Positions 26,757 through 48,754 of a stretch of 64,000 bases of DNA are shown one piece after another (the first letter of the stretch is position 1; each line of letters starts with the position of its first letter). The position numbers and the translations under genes were made by a program. Origin of the DNA: Bdellovibrionota bacterium (lineage in GTDB: Bacteria; Bdellovibrionota; Bdellovibrionia; Bdellovibrionales; JAEYZS01); assembly GCA_040386775.1 (NCBI GenBank), contig JAZKEU010000008.1, forward strand, positions 99,794-163,793, given 5' to 3'. The notes under the pieces are model-generated. The model was not told the origin of the DNA and did not search any database. It worked only from the letters and a program-made list of their open reading frames with translations.

Positions 26757-26913
26757 AGAACCTCCTGAATAAGCAATTTATTGCAAAATATAAACACTTA
26801 CTGACACTTTCAAGATGAATCGAGTTTTAGAATATTTAAACTGCTGAACAGGCATTCAGCATTGATTTTTAATATAATGTTGATTTTTGAAAACAATAGT
26901 TTTAGGTACAGTG

Positions 26914-27228
26914 ATGGCTGATAATGACGCATTTTATAGAACTTATCTAAAACAAGAACTCCAAAGGAGAAAAGAACGAAACTCTCTCTACTCTCTAAGG
27001 GCATTTGCAAAAAGCTTGTCGATTGATAATGGTCAACTTTCAAAAATTATTTCTGGTAAAGCGCTTTTGTCTGTCGATCTTGCTGATATTATTTCAAAAA
27101 AACTAAAGCTTATTGGTAATGATCGCATTGGCTTTCTTGTTTCCGCAGCGGAGGAGCAAAAGTGCCATTTGCTTTATCTGGTAGATCCTACGCTAACCGA
27201 ATGCGATTCTGACGAGTGCTCGTCATAG
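26914..27228 (+). CDS. Short helix-turn-helix protein like the N-terminus of TIGR02147 regulators
   Basis: 104 residues. The stretch YRTYLKQELQRRKERN followed by YSLRAFAKSLSIDNGQLSKI and ISGKALLS has the layout of the DNA-binding start of TIGR02147 proteins (compare the full-length one at 35072). The roughly 200-residue C-terminal part is absent. The C-terminus ends with an acidic Cys-containing tail, TECDSDECSS. The start at 26914 has AGG eight bases upstream. This is either a stand-alone regulator or a truncated one. Confidence 0.65.
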   Translation: MADNDAFYRTYLKQELQRRKERNSLYSLRAFAKSLSIDNGQLSKIISGKALLSVDLADIISKKLKLIGNDRIGFLVSAAEEQKCHLLYLVDPTLTECDSDECSS

Positions 27229-31307: not shown

Positions 31308-31344
31308 AAAAAAACGCAAAGCTTTAAAAGCTTTGCGTTTTTTT
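31308..31344 (+). terminator. Strong intrinsic terminator
   Basis: AAAACGCAAAGCTTT (31311-31325) and AAAGCTTTGCGTTTT (31327-31341) form a long perfect stem, with an A-run before it and a T-run after it. It works in both directions. Confidence 0.9.
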
Positions 31345-31501
31345 ATTTTAGGTGGATCGAGAGAATATAAGGTTGTGCCGTCGGTTTGGTATTCACATGG
31401 ATTTCCGTATCTTGCTGAATCCAATAATTAATGTGGCCTTGCGGAGATGGAGATATATAAGCCATATGATTGATCTGATTGATATACTTTAGAGAGAAAG
31501 A
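31343..31501 (-). pseudogene. Duplicated C-terminal fragment of the peptidase gene at 33908
   Basis: The frame reads SFSLKYINQINHMAYISPSP, then QGHINYWIQQDTEIHVNTKP and TAQPYILSIHLK-stop. The peptidase at 33908 ends with an almost identical series, but has 31 extra residues between its YMA and YVSPSPQG. The fragment therefore carries a clean 93-bp in-frame deletion and lacks the catalytic part. No start with a ribosome site. It abuts the terminator at 31308-31344. Confidence 0.85.
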
Positions 31502-31642
31502 ATTATGGATATTGGATGGTGTAAGTTTGAGAAACTTTTTAGGGCACGAAAAGTTATGTTTTAGACATCTCTTTGGCTTTAAATCCAAATAAATCTATTT
31601 TTAACCTGGCATGCTATCTGCTTAGTAAATGAATTGAAAAAC

Positions 31643-33907: not shown

Positions 33908-34957
33908 TTATTTTAGATGGATCGAAAGAATATAAGAATGTGCAGTCGGTTTTGCGCTCACATTGATTTCCATATCTTGTTGAATCCAATAATTAATGTA
34001 GCCTTGCGGAGATGGAGATACATAGCCCGTATAATTTCCATAAATACGTGGACGAGAGTGTTTATTTGTCTCTACTCCATCCATCACAATGTACTTTTCG
34101 TATTGAGCTTCTTCTTGAGCCATGTAATTGATCTGATTGATATACTTTGCAATTTGAAAAGACTTAAAGAGTTCGTTAAAATTTGGAAAGATAATTTTAG
34201 GATCAGAGCTTGAATGATTTAAAACATAATTTATAAATTTACGACCTTCTTTTTTTTCAAGATACGAAACAAATAAAAGTGCATGTCCATAGAAAGATTC
34301 TTTATCTTCTACCAGCTCCAATTTTTTTGAGGGCTCAAGCGGCATCCATGGAGATTTCATCAAATGAGTTGCTGCTAATGAGAAATTTTCTTCACTGGAT
34401 ATTTTATTTTCAAAGTAAAGAGCCATTCCTTCTTCAAACCAGGTCGGATAAGTTTTTCCTAGCTGTTGACTGATATAATGAAAAAGCTCATGTGTGAGCT
34501 TTCTTTTAAAGAAAGAAACATCACTTAAAAAAGCATCATTCACAAAGATTTTAAAATCTGTTTTTGATTGTTGAGACTTGCAGACGATCGCAGCAAAATC
34601 TTTAAATGGGGCGGGTAGTGTGTCCCCAAATGAATAGATATGAATACGATTTGGGACAAGAGAACTTAAATTATGTTTATGCAATTCTCTAACAATTTGA
34701 ATCCATGCGACTTGAAAGGATTCTGTGGAATGAACCGCGTAAGGCACTTCTTTTTTCCAATATATAGACAGCTCACTGTTCTCTAAATTATTGATTTTTT
34801 GCGATTTAAATAAGGCCAAGTTTAAATCAAAACAGCCACCAGGAAGTAAAAAATCATTGCTAGAGAATCCTTTTTGAGTCCCTAATAATATCAAAAATAT
34901 AAATAATATTAAAAGCTTAAGCTTATTTATCAATTTATGCCCCTTGAACTTCCTCAA
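33908..34957 (-). CDS. Exported gluzincin-type metallopeptidase
   Basis: 349 residues. An N-terminal membrane or signal segment (LKLLILFIFLILLG) is followed by a zinc motif LTHELFHYIS and, 18 residues later, WFEEGMALYFE. This is the His-Glu-x-x-His plus Glu pattern of the peptidase MA-like clan. The C-terminal 100 residues form a separate region, which is the part duplicated as a remnant at 31343-31501. It is divergent from the TIGR02147 gene at 35072 across 114 bases, so the two may share control. Confidence 0.78.
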   Translation of the reverse strand: MRKFKGHKLINKLKLLILFIFLILLGTQKGFSSNDFLLPGGCFDLNLALFKSQKINNLENSELSIYWKKEVPYAVHSTESFQVAWIQIVRELHKHNLSSLVPNRIHIYSFGDTLPAPFKDFAAIVCKSQQSKTDFKIFVNDAFLSDVSFFKRKLTHELFHYISQQLGKTYPTWFEEGMALYFENKISSEENFSLAATHLMKSPWMPLEPSKKLELVEDKESFYGHALLFVSYLEKKEGRKFINYVLNHSSSDPKIIFPNFNELFKSFQIAKYINQINYMAQEEAQYEKYIVMDGVETNKHSRPRIYGNYTGYVSPSPQGYINYWIQQDMEINVSAKPTAHSYILSIHLK

Positions 34958-35071
34958 TTTAACTCAAGCGTTCCCTAAATCGGAACGAATATTTTATAAA
35001 TTGAATATTTTTCTATATAAGTTGGGAATGCGCTGAGATATACAACTGCAAAACCAAAAACGTGGGACGAA

Positions 35072-35977
35072 ATGGAAATTGAATCGAACAAAAACATTCG
35101 AACTAGTAAAGCTAGCGCAGACCAAAAGTCTCCGCGTGTCTTTGATTATTTGGATTATCGTGAGTATCTCAAAGCATACTACGAATACAACAAGTCCATT
35201 AACCCTCACTTTTCCTATGGGCAGTTTGCTAACAAAGCCAAGTTTCAAACTCGCAATTACCTAAAAAGAATCATTGATGGCGAAAGACCCATTACAAATG
35301 AAAACCTTCCGAAGTTCTGTATCGCACTTAATTTGACCTTAAAAGAATCTCAGTACTTTGAATCTCTAATTAACTACAATCAGGCTAAAGATCCATCAGT
35401 TAAAAAATATTATTTCCAACACTTAAGAGAGGCCGCAACAGGCGTTCCCAATTCAGCTATTGAGTTGAGTTATAACCAGTATGAACTCTTCTCGAACTGG
35501 TACAATATTCCTGTGTTTGATGCCCTCTCGCTAACACACATTGATCCTACGCCAGAGAGTATTTCTAAAGTATTTCGAAAGAAAATCACTCCTAAAGAAG
35601 TCAAAGGGGCGTTAGAGCTTTTAGAAAAAGTAGGATTAATTTATTTTGATGCCGAATCTCAACGATACAAGAGATCAATGGAAAAAATAAAATACACTCA
35701 AAGTGTTGTGAATCTCGCCGTGAGAGAGTTTCACAAGCAAACTCTTTCTAATGTGATTGATTTTATCGAAGAAGAGCCACTCGAGGCAAGATATCTTCGA
35801 TCTCTGACGGTTTCAATCAACAAAGATCACATCAAAGAAGTTTATTCTGAGATCGATAGCTTGATCCAAAAGTTGAATAATAAATATTCCGACACTCAGG
35901 GTGATAAAAATATGCTCATGCAATTAAATTTAAATGTTTTAAATCTTATTAAAAATAATAAAGGAGAAACGAAATGA
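35072..35977 (+). CDS. TIGR02147 family regulator
   Basis: 301 residues. The N-terminal part VFDYLDYREYLKAYYEYNKS followed by FSYGQFANKAKFQTRNYLKR, and the later ALELLEKVGLIYFDAESQRY, are typical of TIGR02147 proteins, which combine a helix-turn-helix with a helical domain. They are common in Bdellovibrionota and Fibrobacteres and lie next to exported-protein genes. GGGACGAA precedes the ATG. The stop overlaps the next start (ATGA), so this regulator heads a single operon running to 41268. Confidence 0.9.
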   Translation: MEIESNKNIRTSKASADQKSPRVFDYLDYREYLKAYYEYNKSINPHFSYGQFANKAKFQTRNYLKRIIDGERPITNENLPKFCIALNLTLKESQYFESLINYNQAKDPSVKKYYFQHLREAATGVPNSAIELSYNQYELFSNWYNIPVFDALSLTHIDPTPESISKVFRKKITPKEVKGALELLEKVGLIYFDAESQRYKRSMEKIKYTQSVVNLAVREFHKQTLSNVIDFIEEEPLEARYLRSLTVSINKDHIKEVYSEIDSLIQKLNNKYSDTQGDKNMLMQLNLNVLNLIKNNKGETK

Positions 35978-36897
35978 AAATTTTAAAATCGACACTTGCG
36001 GTCTTTGCAATATTGCTGATCGCAGGACAAGTGAATGCCGGATCGGATATCGGCGGGGGCACGCTTAATGAATTTGGAGTTGAGTATCCAACTCAATCTT
36101 CAGAGGATAGCTACTATTGTGATTATAGCTATGACACTTTAGATATTGCAATGTCTACGGCACTCAACCAGGCAAGAACTGATTTTGGTAGAGCTAGAAA
36201 TACAATCCGCAGAGGTATCCAAAGCGCAATTATTGGTTTTAGCAAATGGGGTAAAAACTATAAACCTCTCACAAAGGATGCTTTGGTTAGGGCTTTAGAA
36301 TTAGATCGTATCTTTAATGATAGCTGTGGAGAAAAAGTAGAATTCTGCCAAGCAGATAGAAGAGCCTTAAGATTTGTTTACGGATATTTGCAGCATGTAA
36401 AAGAGAGAATTGTTCCTCTGGATCGCGATTATTATATGCCATTAAATTCTTACCAAAGACCTTACACTCCTGTGAATGGTTCTCAATATGATGATGGTAG
36501 AACCTATGCTGGTGGAAATTTGTATGGTGGTGGCGGCATGTGGGAAATCTTTGCTTCAAAATATAAAGACACAGCGATAGCACTTCTTCAAGTTTATGCT
36601 GGTCAAGGATCTGACTATCAACTTCCGGAGGCTTTCGGTAATGACACTTACGAATTGAGAGCTGCTGTAAAAATCTTTAATTACGCAAGTTATGATTTAA
36701 GACGTGATGATCTCAATAGAGTATTTAAATGTGAGATCAGTGGTCTTAGTTCTTTAGCTCAAATGCTATCAGCACAATTGAACGGTAACGGTCCATTCTA
36801 TAGCAAACGCGAAGCTTGTTTAGAAGCAAGAGGCTTTGCAGACCGTGTGATAACAACTTCAGATGCATATCACTGCCGAATGAATAGAAGAAATTAA
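35974..36897 (+). CDS. Secreted protein in the TIGR02147 operon
   Basis: 307 residues. The signal peptide ends at VNAGSD. The mature chain is rich in Tyr, Asp and Gly, with a long Gly/Tyr linker in the middle (DGRTYAGGNLYGGGGMWEIF). Six or more cysteines include CGEKVEFCQ. Translationally coupled to the regulator by ATGA. No family recognised. The shared transcript suggests a joint role with the paralogs that follow. Confidence 0.75.
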   Translation: MKILKSTLAVFAILLIAGQVNAGSDIGGGTLNEFGVEYPTQSSEDSYYCDYSYDTLDIAMSTALNQARTDFGRARNTIRRGIQSAIIGFSKWGKNYKPLTKDALVRALELDRIFNDSCGEKVEFCQADRRALRFVYGYLQHVKERIVPLDRDYYMPLNSYQRPYTPVNGSQYDDGRTYAGGNLYGGGGMWEIFASKYKDTAIALLQVYAGQGSDYQLPEAFGNDTYELRAAVKIFNYASYDLRRDDLNRVFKCEISGLSSLAQMLSAQLNGNGPFYSKREACLEARGFADRVITTSDAYHCRMNRRN

Positions 36898-36912
36898 TAA
36901 AGGAGAATTTTT

Positions 36913-37686
36913 GTGAAATTATTAACGTTAGCTATATTGCTTTTTTCTCTAAAAGGATTTGCGGGACCGCAACTTCCACAGGATTTCTCTCAACTCGAGG
37001 GAGCATTCAAAGGTGTCGGGCTCTCAAGCAAAAAATCTGCTTATCTTTTGGTGTATAGAGTTTTAGAAAACAACCAGTCCAGCTGCAGATTCAATATCTT
37101 TTTAATCTCTCAAAATAAAGCGGGTGGACAAGTTCTAGAAGCAGAATGCATTGGGGCGACAGCTCTTGCTGTTCTGGGAATCGGAACAACAAGCAATTCT
37201 AAATATCTCGAGGCTAAGCTTCCACCTGCGGGCATTTTAGAAGAAAGATTCGATGCAAAGCATGGCAGATATTTGCACCTAGGTAGACAAAAAAATACCT
37301 CCTTTCTTCCAAGCCCGCTTGCTGAAGACTATGCATTCACATCTGATTCAGATGACATACGTGTTTATACAGGTGCACCACTGGGTTTATTCAATAGCAA
37401 CTCAAACTCGGTCAGTAGCACAAAGGGCAATCAAGGAACATTGAATCTTGTTACTCAGCTTCCTTCATTGGGTTTAACTGGAAAGTTTGTGGGCGTATCA
37501 GAGCTTGCGGGTGTAACTATTTTGAGAGAACAAAAATTGGACAATAGCTTGTATCAATACAGCGAAGGTGAAATCTCGGGAATGCTTGTAACAATTGTAA
37601 GCGGGAAGCGTGTGATGGTGGTGGTTGGAAAAATTTCTGACGGAAGACCTCAGTCCATTGTATTTTTACCCCTAACTAAAAACTAA
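36913..37686 (+). CDS. Secreted protein in the TIGR02147 operon
   Basis: 257 residues from a GTG at 36913 with AAAGGAGAA before it, 15 bases after the previous stop. The signal peptide ends at GFAG. The mature protein looks all-beta, with two cysteines (SSCRFN and EAECIG) and a Ser/Asn-rich linker (SNSNSVSSTKGNQGT) in the middle, so it may be two related beta domains. No family recognised. Confidence 0.72.
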   Translation: MKLLTLAILLFSLKGFAGPQLPQDFSQLEGAFKGVGLSSKKSAYLLVYRVLENNQSSCRFNIFLISQNKAGGQVLEAECIGATALAVLGIGTTSNSKYLEAKLPPAGILEERFDAKHGRYLHLGRQKNTSFLPSPLAEDYAFTSDSDDIRVYTGAPLGLFNSNSNSVSSTKGNQGTLNLVTQLPSLGLTGKFVGVSELAGVTILREQKLDNSLYQYSEGEISGMLVTIVSGKRVMVVVGKISDGRPQSIVFLPLTKN

Positions 37687-37695
37687 GGATTTTAT

Positions 37696-38478
37696 ATGAA
37701 ACCTCTTATACTTTTATTATGCCTGACTTTTACGATGACTTCTTTTGCACAAGAAGGCGTTTCAACAGACATCGATCCTGCAAGACTCAACGAAGTGATG
37801 GACTGGGTGAACAATGCAAAGTTTGAATTGGACACGGGAATCGAAGATATTTCTAAATCTTCTATCACTGAGCAAGAGTCCTCTTACAGTCAATTGATTG
37901 CTAGGGTTCTCCAGGCCTCAGGAACAAGATCTAATGAATTTCTAATGAGAAATATGCTTTACAGAACTCAAGTGGTTTATAAGTCCATTCAAAATACTGC
38001 GCCTTCGCCAAAACGAGATGCCTATGCTCGCAGAATTTTGGATGAAGGAGTGGCGTGGTCATTAAGACTCTACCAATTGGACAAGAGTTTGCTTGAGCAA
38101 ATGAAATCTCAATCTATCCCTGATTATGTTCGTGGAGTTTCTTTTGTTAGTCTAGGACTTCAATGGACTGAGTATATGTTTAGTCTTTATTATGCAGTTC
38201 CTGATAATAAGGCCAAACTACAACTTATGAAAGATCTAATGGGACTTTTGTATAACGACATCAATAATGATGATTCTGTAAAAAGAATTTTAGCTCCAAT
38301 TTCTGGAAAGATTGCTTTTAAAAATGAAGAGTTAAAAAATAAGTTACAAAATAATCCTCCGAAGACTCCGATTGAAGAACTTGCGCTTGCCAGAGATTTG
38401 AGAAGATTTATGGAGCAACATATCGAGGCTGCTAAAAAATTATTATCACCCTATTCAAAGTCTGGGACTAGATTTTGA
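37696..38478 (+). CDS. Tandem paralog 1: short form of the exported helical module
   Basis: 260 residues. The signal peptide ends at SFAQ and is followed by the signature EGVSTDIDPARLNEVMDWV. The most conserved block is NEFLMRNMLYRTQVVYKSIQ, then SPKRDAYARRIL and a second one ending LMKDLMGLLYNDIN. The protein stops right after the shared module, so it represents the bare module. It is helical throughout. Two more copies with added tails follow. Family not recognised. Confidence 0.78.
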   Translation: MKPLILLLCLTFTMTSFAQEGVSTDIDPARLNEVMDWVNNAKFELDTGIEDISKSSITEQESSYSQLIARVLQASGTRSNEFLMRNMLYRTQVVYKSIQNTAPSPKRDAYARRILDEGVAWSLRLYQLDKSLLEQMKSQSIPDYVRGVSFVSLGLQWTEYMFSLYYAVPDNKAKLQLMKDLMGLLYNDINNDDSVKRILAPISGKIAFKNEELKNKLQNNPPKTPIEELALARDLRRFMEQHIEAAKKLLSPYSKSGTRF

Positions 38479-39905
38479 AGATTATAATTTTTCTTGCATT
38501 AACATTATCAACAGCCTGTTCCTTCGCTCAAGTTGGTGTATCGACGGATATTGATCCGAAGAGAATCAATGAAGTATCAGAGTGGGTTGATAATGCAAAG
38601 TTTGAATTGGATAAGGGGATTGAAGACATCTCTAAGCTTCCAATTCCTGAGCAAGAAAATGGTTATAATGATCTTATCGATAAAGTTCTAAAATTATCAA
38701 ATGCAAAACCAAATGAGTTCTTAATGCGTAACATGCTTTATAGAACTCAGGTGGTTTATAAAGCCATTCAAAATAGCTCATCATCTCCAAAGCGTGATGC
38801 ATATGCACGAAGAATCTTAGAGGAAGGAGCAAAGTGGGCGTTAACACTTTATGAGGCGGATCAAGATTTGCTTCATAAAATAAAGACTTCAAAAGATCCT
38901 AGCGAATTCAAAGGAGTGTCATTTGTTAATCTTGGGCTCCGCTGGGCTGATTATGTTTTTAATTTGTATTATTCAGCGCCGGACAACAGCTCTAAATTTC
39001 TTTTGATGAAAGATATGTTAGGGCTACTTTATAATGACATCAACGATGATGCTGCAGTTAAGAAAATACTCGCAGCTGTCTCGAAAAAAATTATATCAAA
39101 ACATGCCGAGCTAAAAAACTACGATCCAAAAAGTCTAAATGAAGAACTTGAAGCTGCAAGAGATCTCCGCCGATTTATCGAACAGCATATTTCAGCTATC
39201 AAAAATATCATTTCTGATTACCCTGATATCTATAAGAATCTTATTCCTTTTGATGCCTATAATTTGAGGCTCGAGGTTTTATCGTCGGTAATGTATAAAA
39301 ATATATTTCCTATCTGTGAGGGTATGGAATTTTCAGAAATTTTATTCTCTAGACCTTTGCTGAGCGGAATGATCATTCGTATTCTTGAGCCGCTGAAGTG
39401 GGGAGATAAACTTGACTACAATCAGCCAGTTCGTTTTCGATTGGAAGAAAGTAGTCCGAAAATTTCAGATTACGCACCTTTATTGCCAAATTGTGAAGGA
39501 ACTCTTTCCTTGTCATCGCTAATACGAGAAGGAGATTATAAACTAAATGATAAGTATTTTAGACCCGTCAGTGAAGCTGTAACTTTTAATAGTAGGCATG
39601 GTATAGCTAAAGAGAATGTGTACTTAGTTGATAAAAAAAACCTTAAACCTTATGATAGAAAATGTCTTATTATTCCACAGCATACAAAGCTTACAGTCAG
39701 TAGCAAAGATGTGAAGTCACTTCCTTTTTTTATGCCTGATTTACTTGGAGTAATTGAGTCATTTATTTCCAGAAAAAACAAATTTATTGTTTCAGATATA
39801 GATCCTAAGCAGATTTATAACTTTGTAGAAGTTGTAAGCGATGACCCTAAGCTTAACGGCTGTAAAGGGTATATTCTTAGACATTATATTACTATGGTGG
39901 AATAA
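38475..39905 (+). CDS. Tandem paralog 2: helical module plus tail of about 225 residues
   Basis: 476 residues from a TTG overlapping the previous stop. The signal peptide ends at SFAQ. Residues 20-245 repeat the module (VGVSTDIDPKRINEVSEWV, NEFLMRNMLYRTQVVYKAIQ and SPKRDAYARRIL). The tail (about 250-476) is beta-rich, has five or more cysteines and ends with GCKGYILRHYI. It does not resemble the tail of paralog 3 apart from a short Gly-Cys-x-Gly-Tyr ending. SH3-like folds are possible for the tail, but this is weak. Confidence 0.75.
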   Translation: MKIIIFLALTLSTACSFAQVGVSTDIDPKRINEVSEWVDNAKFELDKGIEDISKLPIPEQENGYNDLIDKVLKLSNAKPNEFLMRNMLYRTQVVYKAIQNSSSSPKRDAYARRILEEGAKWALTLYEADQDLLHKIKTSKDPSEFKGVSFVNLGLRWADYVFNLYYSAPDNSSKFLLMKDMLGLLYNDINDDAAVKKILAAVSKKIISKHAELKNYDPKSLNEELEAARDLRRFIEQHISAIKNIISDYPDIYKNLIPFDAYNLRLEVLSSVMYKNIFPICEGMEFSEILFSRPLLSGMIIRILEPLKWGDKLDYNQPVRFRLEESSPKISDYAPLLPNCEGTLSLSSLIREGDYKLNDKYFRPVSEAVTFNSRHGIAKENVYLVDKKNLKPYDRKCLIIPQHTKLTVSSKDVKSLPFFMPDLLGVIESFISRKNKFIVSDIDPKQIYNFVEVVSDDPKLNGCKGYILRHYITMVE

Positions 39906-39906
39906 A

Positions 39907-41268
39907 ATGAAAATACTATTAATTGCATTTCTATCTTTAATTTCTTTAAATCTGAATGCCGCGGAAGGCGTTTCGACTGAAGTTGATCCCTCGAAGCTGA
40001 CGCAAGTTGAAAAATGGATTGAGAATGCAAAGTATGATTTAGATATTGGAATTGACGATATTTCAAAAGGACCTATTACTGAACGGGAAGAACGTTTTAG
40101 AAATTTAATTGTTCAAGTTTTAGAAAAGTCGGGGAAAAACTCCAATGAATTTTTAATGCGCAATATGCTTTATAGAACTCAAGTGGTTTATTCTTCGTTA
40201 CAAAAATCCGTTCCATCCGAAAAAAGAGATGCTGTTTCGAGAAAAGTTCTAGAAGAAGGAGTGAGATGGGCCTCATCTCTTTATCAAGCTGATCTCTCGC
40301 TCATTGGCAGCATAAAAAATAAGACAGCAGAAGATTACACTCCTGGAGTTGCGTTTGCGACGTTGGGTTTGGAGTGGGCTGAATATATGTTTGGTCTTTA
40401 TTACGATATTCCAGATAATAAAATGAGATTTGAGCTTTTAAAAGATCTTATGGGTCTTATGTACAATGATGTTAACAGCGACTCTGCTGTGAATCGCATT
40501 CTGGCTCCTGTAAGTAAAAGTATTGTTCAAAAGAACGAGGAAATAAAACAAATTCCAAATATTCCGAGAACTCCACAAGAGGAATTAGAGCTTGCCAGAA
40601 GCTTGCGTACATTTATTGAAACTCATATTGATGAGACGAGAGCTCTTCTTGAGCCTTATGCTGTCAATTTTTACGGTGAGGGATTTAGGGCAAGTCCTGG
40701 AGACATAGGAGATGTTGCTAGAACACTGAGTTTTGAAAGTGTCACAACCCCTGGTTGCTCTCGTGCTTCTTCTATTAATGAGAAGCTGCAGGTTATTGAA
40801 AATGGAAGTAAGATTAGATTTTTACCTCATCATAATTCTGATTTGTATTATGTTGAAGTGATTGATATTCCAAGCACCTCATCTCCTATGGGTGCTCAAG
40901 TAAGCTGCAAAGGATTTCTCACAAAAAGAATGTTGAGTTTTGGTGTAAAAAGAATTTTTAAAAGAGATGCTGAGCATATCACAAGGATTAAAACTCAAGC
41001 AAAAACCAACATGATTCATTTTGTGATAGCAAAAAAGAATGAAAGACTTAAAAAGTATTGTCGCTATCTTGACCGAAATACAAATGTAGTGCTTGTGGAT
41101 TTCGTTAAATATTACCTTTTTCAGCCAACTAGACCAAGCGGATTAGGTCCTCTGTTTGATTTACCATCCGCAGAGGTTTATTATCTCGTTAGAGTCGACG
41201 ATCAAAATTCTATGCACTATGGTTGCACGGGATATTTTCCAGCAAGCGGTTTAACCATATTAGATTAA
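39907..41268 (+). CDS. Tandem paralog 3: helical module plus a different tail of about 200 residues
   Basis: 453 residues from the ATG at 39907, which gives a signal peptide ending at NLNAAE. The earlier in-frame extension into paralog 2 is rejected. Residues 20-250 repeat the module (EGVSTEVDPSKLTQVEKWI and NEFLMRNMLYRTQVVY). The tail has two beta-rich units, the first with YYVEVIDIP and SCKGFL, the second with YYLVRVDDQ and GCTGYF, as in bacterial SH3-like repeats. It ends the operon. Confidence 0.76.
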   Translation: MKILLIAFLSLISLNLNAAEGVSTEVDPSKLTQVEKWIENAKYDLDIGIDDISKGPITEREERFRNLIVQVLEKSGKNSNEFLMRNMLYRTQVVYSSLQKSVPSEKRDAVSRKVLEEGVRWASSLYQADLSLIGSIKNKTAEDYTPGVAFATLGLEWAEYMFGLYYDIPDNKMRFELLKDLMGLMYNDVNSDSAVNRILAPVSKSIVQKNEEIKQIPNIPRTPQEELELARSLRTFIETHIDETRALLEPYAVNFYGEGFRASPGDIGDVARTLSFESVTTPGCSRASSINEKLQVIENGSKIRFLPHHNSDLYYVEVIDIPSTSSPMGAQVSCKGFLTKRMLSFGVKRIFKRDAEHITRIKTQAKTNMIHFVIAKKNERLKKYCRYLDRNTNVVLVDFVKYYLFQPTRPSGLGPLFDLPSAEVYYLVRVDDQNSMHYGCTGYFPASGLTILD

Positions 41269-41271
41269 TGC

Positions 41272-41288
41272 GTTTCCCTCTAGGGAAC
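41272..41288. other. Short hairpin after the operon
   Basis: A 5- to 6-bp stem, ttccct/aggga, follows the stop of paralog 3. An A-run comes after it on the plus strand, so it would terminate only minus-strand transcription. Role unclear. Confidence 0.3.
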
Positions 41289-41300
41289 GAAAAAAAACTA

Positions 41301-41360: not shown

Positions 41361-41711
41361 ATGAAAATAATAATCGCACTCTGCTTGATCTTTACAAGCA
41401 TGCAAACTTTTGCAAACCCACGTACTTTTGAAAACTCGGAGCGGATTTTAGAATCAAGTCATGCCAGAGCAGGTTCTTACTATGACTGGGGTCGTGCTAA
41501 AAACGGCTGGGGCTACTGCTACATGTGGTCATCCAATGGATATGTATTGAACGAAGGAAAGCCAGTATCAAACTACAACTGCGAACGCTACCGTCCTTCA
41601 TACTACGACTGGGGAAAAGGCGTGAACGGTTACACTTACTGTTATCAATGGACTCCTTACAGAGTAGCAATGAACGAAGGTAAGCCTGTAGACAACTACT
41701 ACTGTCATTAA
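41361..41711 (+). CDS. Small secreted two-repeat protein (YYDWG repeats)
   Basis: 116 residues. The signal peptide ends at TFAN. The mature part has two copies of a unit of about 36 residues. Each begins YYDWG, has NG and a Tyr-Cys-Tyr core (WGYCYMWS and YTYCYQWT), then LNEGKPVSNY or MNEGKPVDNY and a Cys. Four cysteines give one disulfide per unit. The start is supported by AAGGAGG. It lies just downstream of the paralog operon and has its own leader, so it may be controlled separately. Confidence 0.8.
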   Translation: MKIIIALCLIFTSMQTFANPRTFENSERILESSHARAGSYYDWGRAKNGWGYCYMWSSNGYVLNEGKPVSNYNCERYRPSYYDWGKGVNGYTYCYQWTPYRVAMNEGKPVDNYYCH

Positions 41712-47994: not shown

Positions 47995-48406
47995 AAACCA
48001 CCTAAAGTAGATTCAACTCTTTGGTTTGAATTTTGACTAATTAATATACACCTTGCTTAATTTTGTTAGAATAACAGCCCTTAAAATGCTTAAAAACGCT
48101 AACAAAATTAAGTTATATTTTTCTATGCTTTATCTGTACCAAAAATTGTACGACGCGAGTCAACTTTTAAACTCTTTATCGAGCATACCAGCCAAAACCA
48201 ATTATAGGTCGGTGAAGAGCCACAGCATGTAATGAGTATATGTTTAAGATTTTTTTCACCACTCAAATGACTTAAAGTGTTAGATATCAATGCATGTTTT
48301 TTAGATGCAATCTCCTTTCCCTGCTTGCGCGGGACAGGTGATGCGTAAATGGATTATTAACAACAGAATGGTTAAAACCATTTAATTGGTATTTCAGGAG
48401 GAGACT
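47995..48406. other. Intergenic region with a long inverted repeat
   Basis: About 410 bases without coding sense. It has a 14-bp perfect inverted repeat at 48056-48112 and, near 48329-48340, the motif gcgggacaggtg, identical to part of repeat copy A. The promoters of the divergent genes at 47994 and 48407 must be here. Confidence 0.6.
48056..48112. repeat. 14-bp perfect inverted repeat
   Basis: cttaattttgttag (48056-48069) and ctaacaaaattaag (48099-48112) are exact inverted copies with 29 bases between them. It may be an operator, a terminator-like RNA stem or a recombination site. Confidence 0.8.
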
Positions 48407-48754
48407 ATGACAAAAATATTATTGGTATTGTCATTATTCAGTATCTGTATGTCAGTATCTGCATTTGACGGGACTTCATCATCTCAAGACCAAGATGGCA
48501 AATCAGGATGTACTGAAAGTTATAATGGGAAGGTCGCTTGCGGCAAAAATGCGACAGGCTGTATTGAGTCGTATAACGGCAACGTTGCTTGCGGACGAAA
48601 TGTAAATGTTTGCATTGAATCTTATAACGGCAAGGTTGCTTGTGGTGGTAATGCCAAAAGCTGCATTGAATCTTATAACGGCAACGTTGCTTGTGGTGGT
48701 AATGCCAAAAGCTGCATTGAATCTTATAACGGTAATGTTGCTTGCCCGGAGTGA
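48407..48754 (+). CDS. Small secreted protein of five 17-residue Cys repeats
   Basis: 115 residues from the ATG at 48407, with AGGAGGAG upstream. The signal peptide ends at SVSAF. The mature chain is nearly all repeats of 17 residues with the pattern C-I-E-S-Y-N-G-N-V-A-C-G-x-N-A-x-x. Five copies are present, the last one partial. The two cysteines nine residues apart in each repeat could form a ladder. The last complete copies are almost identical at DNA level, so copy number may change. Function unknown. Confidence 0.82.
   Translation: MTKILLVLSLFSICMSVSAFDGTSSSQDQDGKSGCTESYNGKVACGKNATGCIESYNGNVACGRNVNVCIESYNGKVACGGNAKSCIESYNGNVACGGNAKSCIESYNGNVACPE
48516..48752 (+). repeat. 51-bp tandem repeat inside the Cys-repeat gene
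   Basis: Five units of 51 bases, each starting at the codon of the first Cys of the repeat. The last full units share tgcattgaatcttataacgg and ggtggtaatgccaaaagc. The unit length is divisible by three. Confidence 0.8.

Follow-up and report, generated by a model that had tools for sequence, protein, structure and literature searches.

The question raised by this locus is what purpose is served by an operon in which a regulator gene of the TIGR02147 type is followed by five genes for exported proteins, three of which have a module in common. The operon lies in a window (the whole stretch of 64,000 nucleotides of DNA that was analysed) from a member of the Bdellovibrionota, and it is composed of six genes, all of them on the + strand: the TIGR02147/DUF4423 regulator P0001 (35072-35977), the exported protein P2 with its Gly-rich mature N-terminus, GSDIGGG (35974-36897), the exported protein P3 (36913-37686) and three module proteins. 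The first of these (P0004; 37696-38478) is a module without tail, the second (38475-39905, TTG start) carries a tail of about 229 residues with four cysteines, and the third (39907-41268) a tail of about 204 residues, also with four cysteines. The successive gaps are of -4, 15, 9, -4 and 1 bases. These genes had been read as an operon in the initial annotation and the operon is real, with the same coordinates, a single strand and either 4-base overlaps or gaps of 1-15 bases. The regulator at its head was also recognised correctly, being a clear member of TIGR02147 (Fsuc_second; E 8.1e-57, 192.7 bits vs an NCBIfam cut-off of 50, model positions 3-269 of 272) and DUF4423 (E 9.6e-23), a family named by similarity only. 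The five proteins described as exported all have signal-peptide-like starts, as judged from the sequence and a home-made rule rather than by SignalP, and none has a meaningful match in Pfam or NCBIfam. An Rfam scan of the operon region revealed no RNA families.

A further gene, overlooked in that annotation, belongs to the same unit. It is located on the opposite strand, 114 bases upstream of the regulator (33908-34957, - strand), and encodes MP, an exported HExxH zinc metallopeptidase of the gluzincin or Peptidase MA type, assigned from Peptidase_MA_2, motif, profile and synteny; its likelier start is the TTG at 34933 (MINKLKLLILFIF...), with AAGGGG upstream. The match to Peptidase_MA_2 (E 2.2e-4, 21.5 bits) is under the cut-off of 32.4, and MP is therefore named by clan and not by family. 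Residues H156, E157, H160, E176 and G177, which make up HE..H and EG.A, are invariant in 11 MP homologues, and the family profile matches solved structures of collagenase and M1 aminopeptidase, from E 1.1e-6; on these grounds MP is considered a gluzincin-like zinc peptidase. It resembles the gluzincins (collagenase M9, aminopeptidase M1) in the HExxH and the downstream EG motif, whereas it differs from these families in being exported and small (about 310-415 residues), in its tie to TIGR02147 loci and in staying below the curated cut-offs. The linkage between MP and TIGR02147 persists even at loci that have lost the other genes or have others in their place (L050, L052, L053, L055). A remnant of a second MP copy, the last 66 or so residues of which match the family profile (E 8e-6), is found 2.3 kb from the intact gene (31343-31588, - strand).

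The region between MP and the regulator contains the palindrome CGTTCCCTAAATCGGAACG (34969-34987; CGTTCC-N7-GGAACG), a candidate operator. Similar palindromes are present in the same intergenic region of G128 (L008), G139 (L009) and G138 (L050) and absent from that of G090 (L007), so the element is seen at four of the five closest loci. GTTCC-N5-8-GGGAAC occurs a single time in the 2.86-Mb source genome (G000), between MP and the regulator, and in nine distinct places in the roughly 13 Mb of five genomes; four of the nine lie in the MP-regulator intergenic region. Since a backwards control pattern is overall at least as frequent, it is the position of the palindrome that counts and not its number. 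The TIGR02147 protein is predicted to bind it. More distant clades have different intergenic repeats, as seen by eye; for example, TGCTGACTGG and CCAGTCAGCA, which possibly represent a clade-specific operator, are common to the MP-regulator sequences of another family (L131:3804-3859, L132:5424-5549, L133:5047-5171 and L134:5295-5329). Within the window, a second, imperfect palindrome, CGTTTCCCTCTAGGGAACG (41271-41289), which resembles the upstream one, is located just after the operon and 72 bases before an exported gene whose product, of 116 residues (41361-41711, + strand), has two YDWG...YCY...YC repeats. By eye this protein resembles the YC-repeat tails considered below, a kinship that is not supported, since a repeat profile gave it no better score than shuffles. 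Another small exported-looking protein (48386-48754, + strand) is made of near-identical CIESYNGxVACG repeats.

The module of the three last proteins comprises about 250 residues, with 54-62% identity. That an exported module is common to these consecutive proteins, as had been claimed, is borne out by sequence similarity: the modules of proteins 2 and 3 (62 and 54% identical to protein 1, respectively) match P0004 with E 1.7e-96 and 7.8e-91, and the block NEFLMRNMLYRTQVVY is invariant in all three. Further copies outside the operon were not found in the source genome. The best of five AlphaFold2 models of the P0004 module is all-helical (pLDDT 84.7, pTM 0.82; the other four had pLDDT 45.6-66.9). 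The fold search gave nothing at E <= 0.001, the best match (0.19) being a designed protein, and there were zero matches to Pfam, NCBIfam and PDB sequences; the lack of a characterised relative in these searches is in favour of the initial annotation.

P2, whose family is described by profile A3, is also a distant relative of the module. Comparison of the family-wide alignments with hhalign gave E 2.8e-8 over 209 columns, vs background values for the controls (0.35-0.92 for shuffled columns, 0.6 for reversed); this similarity is significant only with whole families and not with small alignments. As P2 and the module are related, the operon encodes four members of one broad family. The homology of P3 is clear inside groups, with same-position homologues in L007, L008 and L009, and weak across groups; in other families it is mostly positional, with weak profile links, and the position of P3 in the locus is consistent across families. 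Weak matches were also obtained for P3 in G060 and for the module in G027, G069, G078, G081, G098 and G115 (E 0.005-0.07); these were set aside, in part for lack of a fitting gene context.

The Gly-rich start of P2 relates it to a larger set of proteins. There are about 31 TIGR02147 genes above the cut-off in the source genome, and 28 of the 30 loci examined (L073-L102) have a gene on the same strand after the regulator; all 28 products look exported, which bears out the claimed linkage of such regulators to exported proteins. A Gly-rich motif near the mature N-terminus (G-x0-3-GG or GG-x0-2-G) was found in 23 of these 28 proteins, P2 being one of them, vs 7 of 156 other exported-like proteins (Fisher p 1.4e-18). 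The motif was spotted in the source-genome data before its test and the signal peptides were assigned with the home-made rule; G288 (loci L170-L196) serves as an independent check, with 11 of 11, and in G004 the motif follows TIGR02147 in 2 of 11 cases, others having NGG variants. A short or truncated relative of the regulator may be encoded at 26887-27228 (+ strand), where a 113-residue ORF matches no more of TIGR02147 than its N-terminal part (a weak match, E about 5e-6 when the genome was searched). The cellulolytic genus Fibrobacter has an expanded TIGR02147 family as well. Searches of open papers gave no text match for TIGR02147, and its link to the Gly-rich tag appears undescribed there; for DUF4423 they gave just a table entry for Bd3700.

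The whole row (MP, TIGR02147, P2, P3 and module) is conserved in G090, G128 and G139 (L007, L008 and L009), and because the members in these three relatives share only 21-40% identity with their counterparts in the window, the gene order must have been kept for long. The five parts are found all together at 14 loci of seven families (f1, f8, f9, f10, f12, f15 and f28), and most of them, in other order, at L122, L126 and L129. Scans of genome contigs with single proteins or alignments detected nothing or one locus, and iterated profiles were needed to reach the wider family: a profile of eight modules (A11) detected the module in 32 of 369 genomes of the phylum, and a profile of 44 modules (A13) in 35 of 369, belonging to 23 of 182 genera. 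Profile drift is unlikely, because the new module matches adjoin genes for the peptidase, the regulator and P2 that had been matched independently. None of the listed genomes of g7, a well-sampled genus, has the module. Module genes often stand in tandems of 2-4, and orphan copies away from the locus occur at L121, L123, L124 and L127. In G059 and G188 a module gene lies near a different large HExxH protein, without TIGR02147; these exported proteins of 814-820 residues (L069:612-3074 and L139:7380-9824, both + strand) have similar starts and adjoin the modules, and the two loci are perhaps a variant system. The gene cluster is apparently undescribed so far, and scattered in Bdellovibrionota genomes.

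The constancy of the module stands against the variety of what follows it. Adjacent module genes of a locus encode modules with 52-94% identity, vs 21-32% for their tails, a background level, except for two pairs at 48%. The 37 tails of at least 95 residues fall into 22 sequence groups (BLAST at E < 1e-3), most of them without a recognised fold, and no target class is common to the tails. Pfam matches correspond to LamG (E 1.8e-16), HEAT (E 9.5e-13), WD40/propeller (E 3.6e-6) and, in two proteins, FGE-sulfatase (best E 3.9e-5; in L008 the reading of the FGE tail passes over Ns that fill an assembly gap). A PADLOC match of the HEAT tail to HEAT-ARM_XIII was read as a repeat match and not as a defence system. 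Further kinds, seen by eye, are Cys-rich repeats and long beta-rich, W-ending sequences resembling outer-membrane barrels. The folds that can be recognised are of binding or scaffold type and not toxin domains. In the module tree, which has some weak forks and points where long branches join, the copies group mostly by genome or genus; since FGE, GVC-type and YC-repeat tails recur on distant branches, it is concluded that tails were exchanged. In genus g105 two tail types track their module lineages, so that inheritance and exchange both occur. The number of cysteines is even in 24 of 28 long cysteine-containing tails, whereas most modules have no cysteine and there is almost none overall, which supports a location of the tails outside the cytoplasm. 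The constant N-terminus with variable tails proposed for the operon thus holds across the phylum, where the survey of relatives found many other combinations, a second outcome in favour of the initial annotation.

Within the operon itself this proposal has to be corrected in part. The first module protein does stop after the module as had been described, but the two long tails, which had been called unrelated, are probably distant relatives: their global alignment scores above all 1000 shuffles (about 3.9 sd, and about 4.7 sd for the last 75 residues). When these tails were compared by profile with CVGD-type tails from other genomes, the score stayed at background. The SH3-like features ascribed to one tail are not upheld, as there is no Pfam match; with a pLDDT of about 22-31 for the tail in the AlphaFold2 model of P0006, an SH3-like tail stays unproven. 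Tail-less module proteins are retained in P0004, L069 and L070. Directly after the one in L070 (G136) there are five tandem paralogous exported genes (L070:3935-9177, - strand), most of which encode Cys-repeat proteins, with a weak match to the Cys tail in L121.

Taken as a sequence-based reading, the locus may tentatively be regarded as a regulated polymorphic display system of the cell envelope, a reading we favour at a little under an even chance. The TIGR02147 protein would control its own operon and the divergent MP gene through the palindrome between them, and P2, P3 and the module proteins would be exported by their signal peptides. The nearly cysteine-free helical module, present in P2 and in the tandem copies, would be the constant element, docking in a single envelope complex, and the exchangeable tails, outside the cytoplasm, would provide heads for binding or scaffolding whose targets vary. 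MP might mature, trim or remove the module proteins, and duplication of module genes with exchange of tails would diversify what gets bound. In its favour are the recurring gene order, the tandem modules with divergent tails, the return of tail types on distant branches, the even cysteine counts, the position of the palindrome and the exported products encoded after TIGR02147 genes. The patchy presence of the module (35 of 369 genomes), the lack of the palindrome in L007 and the other intergenic sequences of more distant clades, the variety of tails with neither a common target class nor, for most groups, a recognised fold, the orphan copies and the loci of G059 and G188 without TIGR02147 were counted against such a display.

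The same genes could instead form a periplasmic or outer-membrane maintenance complex, in which the module family and P3 would be a structural or chaperone-like assembly policed by MP, and the tails adaptors for internal envelope partners, not for external targets. The barrel-like tails ending in an aromatic W (L136, L137), which would put the module on the periplasmic face, the retention of tail-less module proteins and the peptidase nearly always nearby are consistent with this idea; the patchy presence argues against it, and such fast domain swapping is rare in housekeeping complexes, so that we consider it unlikely. That the proteins are polymorphic toxins or effectors for delivery to prey or competitors is improbable. 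Polymorphic toxin systems combine a conserved exported N-terminus with a C-terminus that varies and is exchanged at a fixed boundary, and the locus has these traits in common with them; tandem copies and a phylum with known predators would also fit. Nevertheless, catalytic toxin domains are absent in Pfam, NCBIfam and PADLOC scans of 36 members, the recognised tails are LamG, HEAT, WD40 and FGE, the module genes are usually directly adjacent, with no immunity gene recognised between copies (such genes can be unrecognisable), and the locus differs in its dedicated P2, P3 and metallopeptidase. From the polymorphic effector or surface proteins suggested in the initial annotation, then, the constant N-terminus and the exchanged tails stand, and toxin domains and immunity genes were not recognised; the prey-directed role and the tie to predators suggested there gain no support from these results. 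A system for binding and processing polymers or nutrients, with tails as substrate-binding domains and MP as the enzyme, is the least probable of all, since the LamG and FGE folds, the relation of the HExxH enzyme to M9/M1 folds and the expansion of TIGR02147 in Fibrobacter are set against loci among whose constant neighbours, as read, we noticed neither a transporter nor a TonB receptor or glycosidase.

Returning to the display system, the module family would by analogy work most like the mosaic adhesive trimer (MAT) fibres of Bdellovibrio bacteriovorus, whose N-terminal part is invariable and whose C-terminal binding domains, among them one with a C-type lectin fold, are exchanged (PMC10769870). 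MAT proteins form long fibres of trimeric beta-helix, in some cases with an S74 chaperone, and diversify by tip swapping (PMC10769870). The phylum is the same and so is the exchange of C-terminal domains on a constant N-terminus, whereas here there is a helical module of about 250 residues, in proteins of 260-703 residues, and a fixed regulator-peptidase locus. The module family is therefore not a member: MAT proteins are defined structurally by a trimeric beta-helix/beta-prism fibre and the MAT N-terminus, the best module model is all-helical, and the family is set apart from MAT by description. A bolder proposal, which we regard as doubtful, is that these proteins may be a new envelope recognition class of the Bdellovibrionota, unrelated in sequence to MAT or toxins, with a helical docking module, exchangeable heads and a fixed locus with regulator, operator and metallopeptidase; it would be part of the wider TIGR02147 loci, whose Gly-rich tag would be a sorting or sensing signal.

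The locus thus points to a widespread protein family, as yet without a name, whose members diversify by exchanging their tails in a phylum that includes known predators, and supplies this family with a dedicated regulator, a candidate operator and a peptidase. Besides, the link between TIGR02147 and the Gly-rich tag gives a first way to approach the question of what a large uncharacterised regulator family controls.
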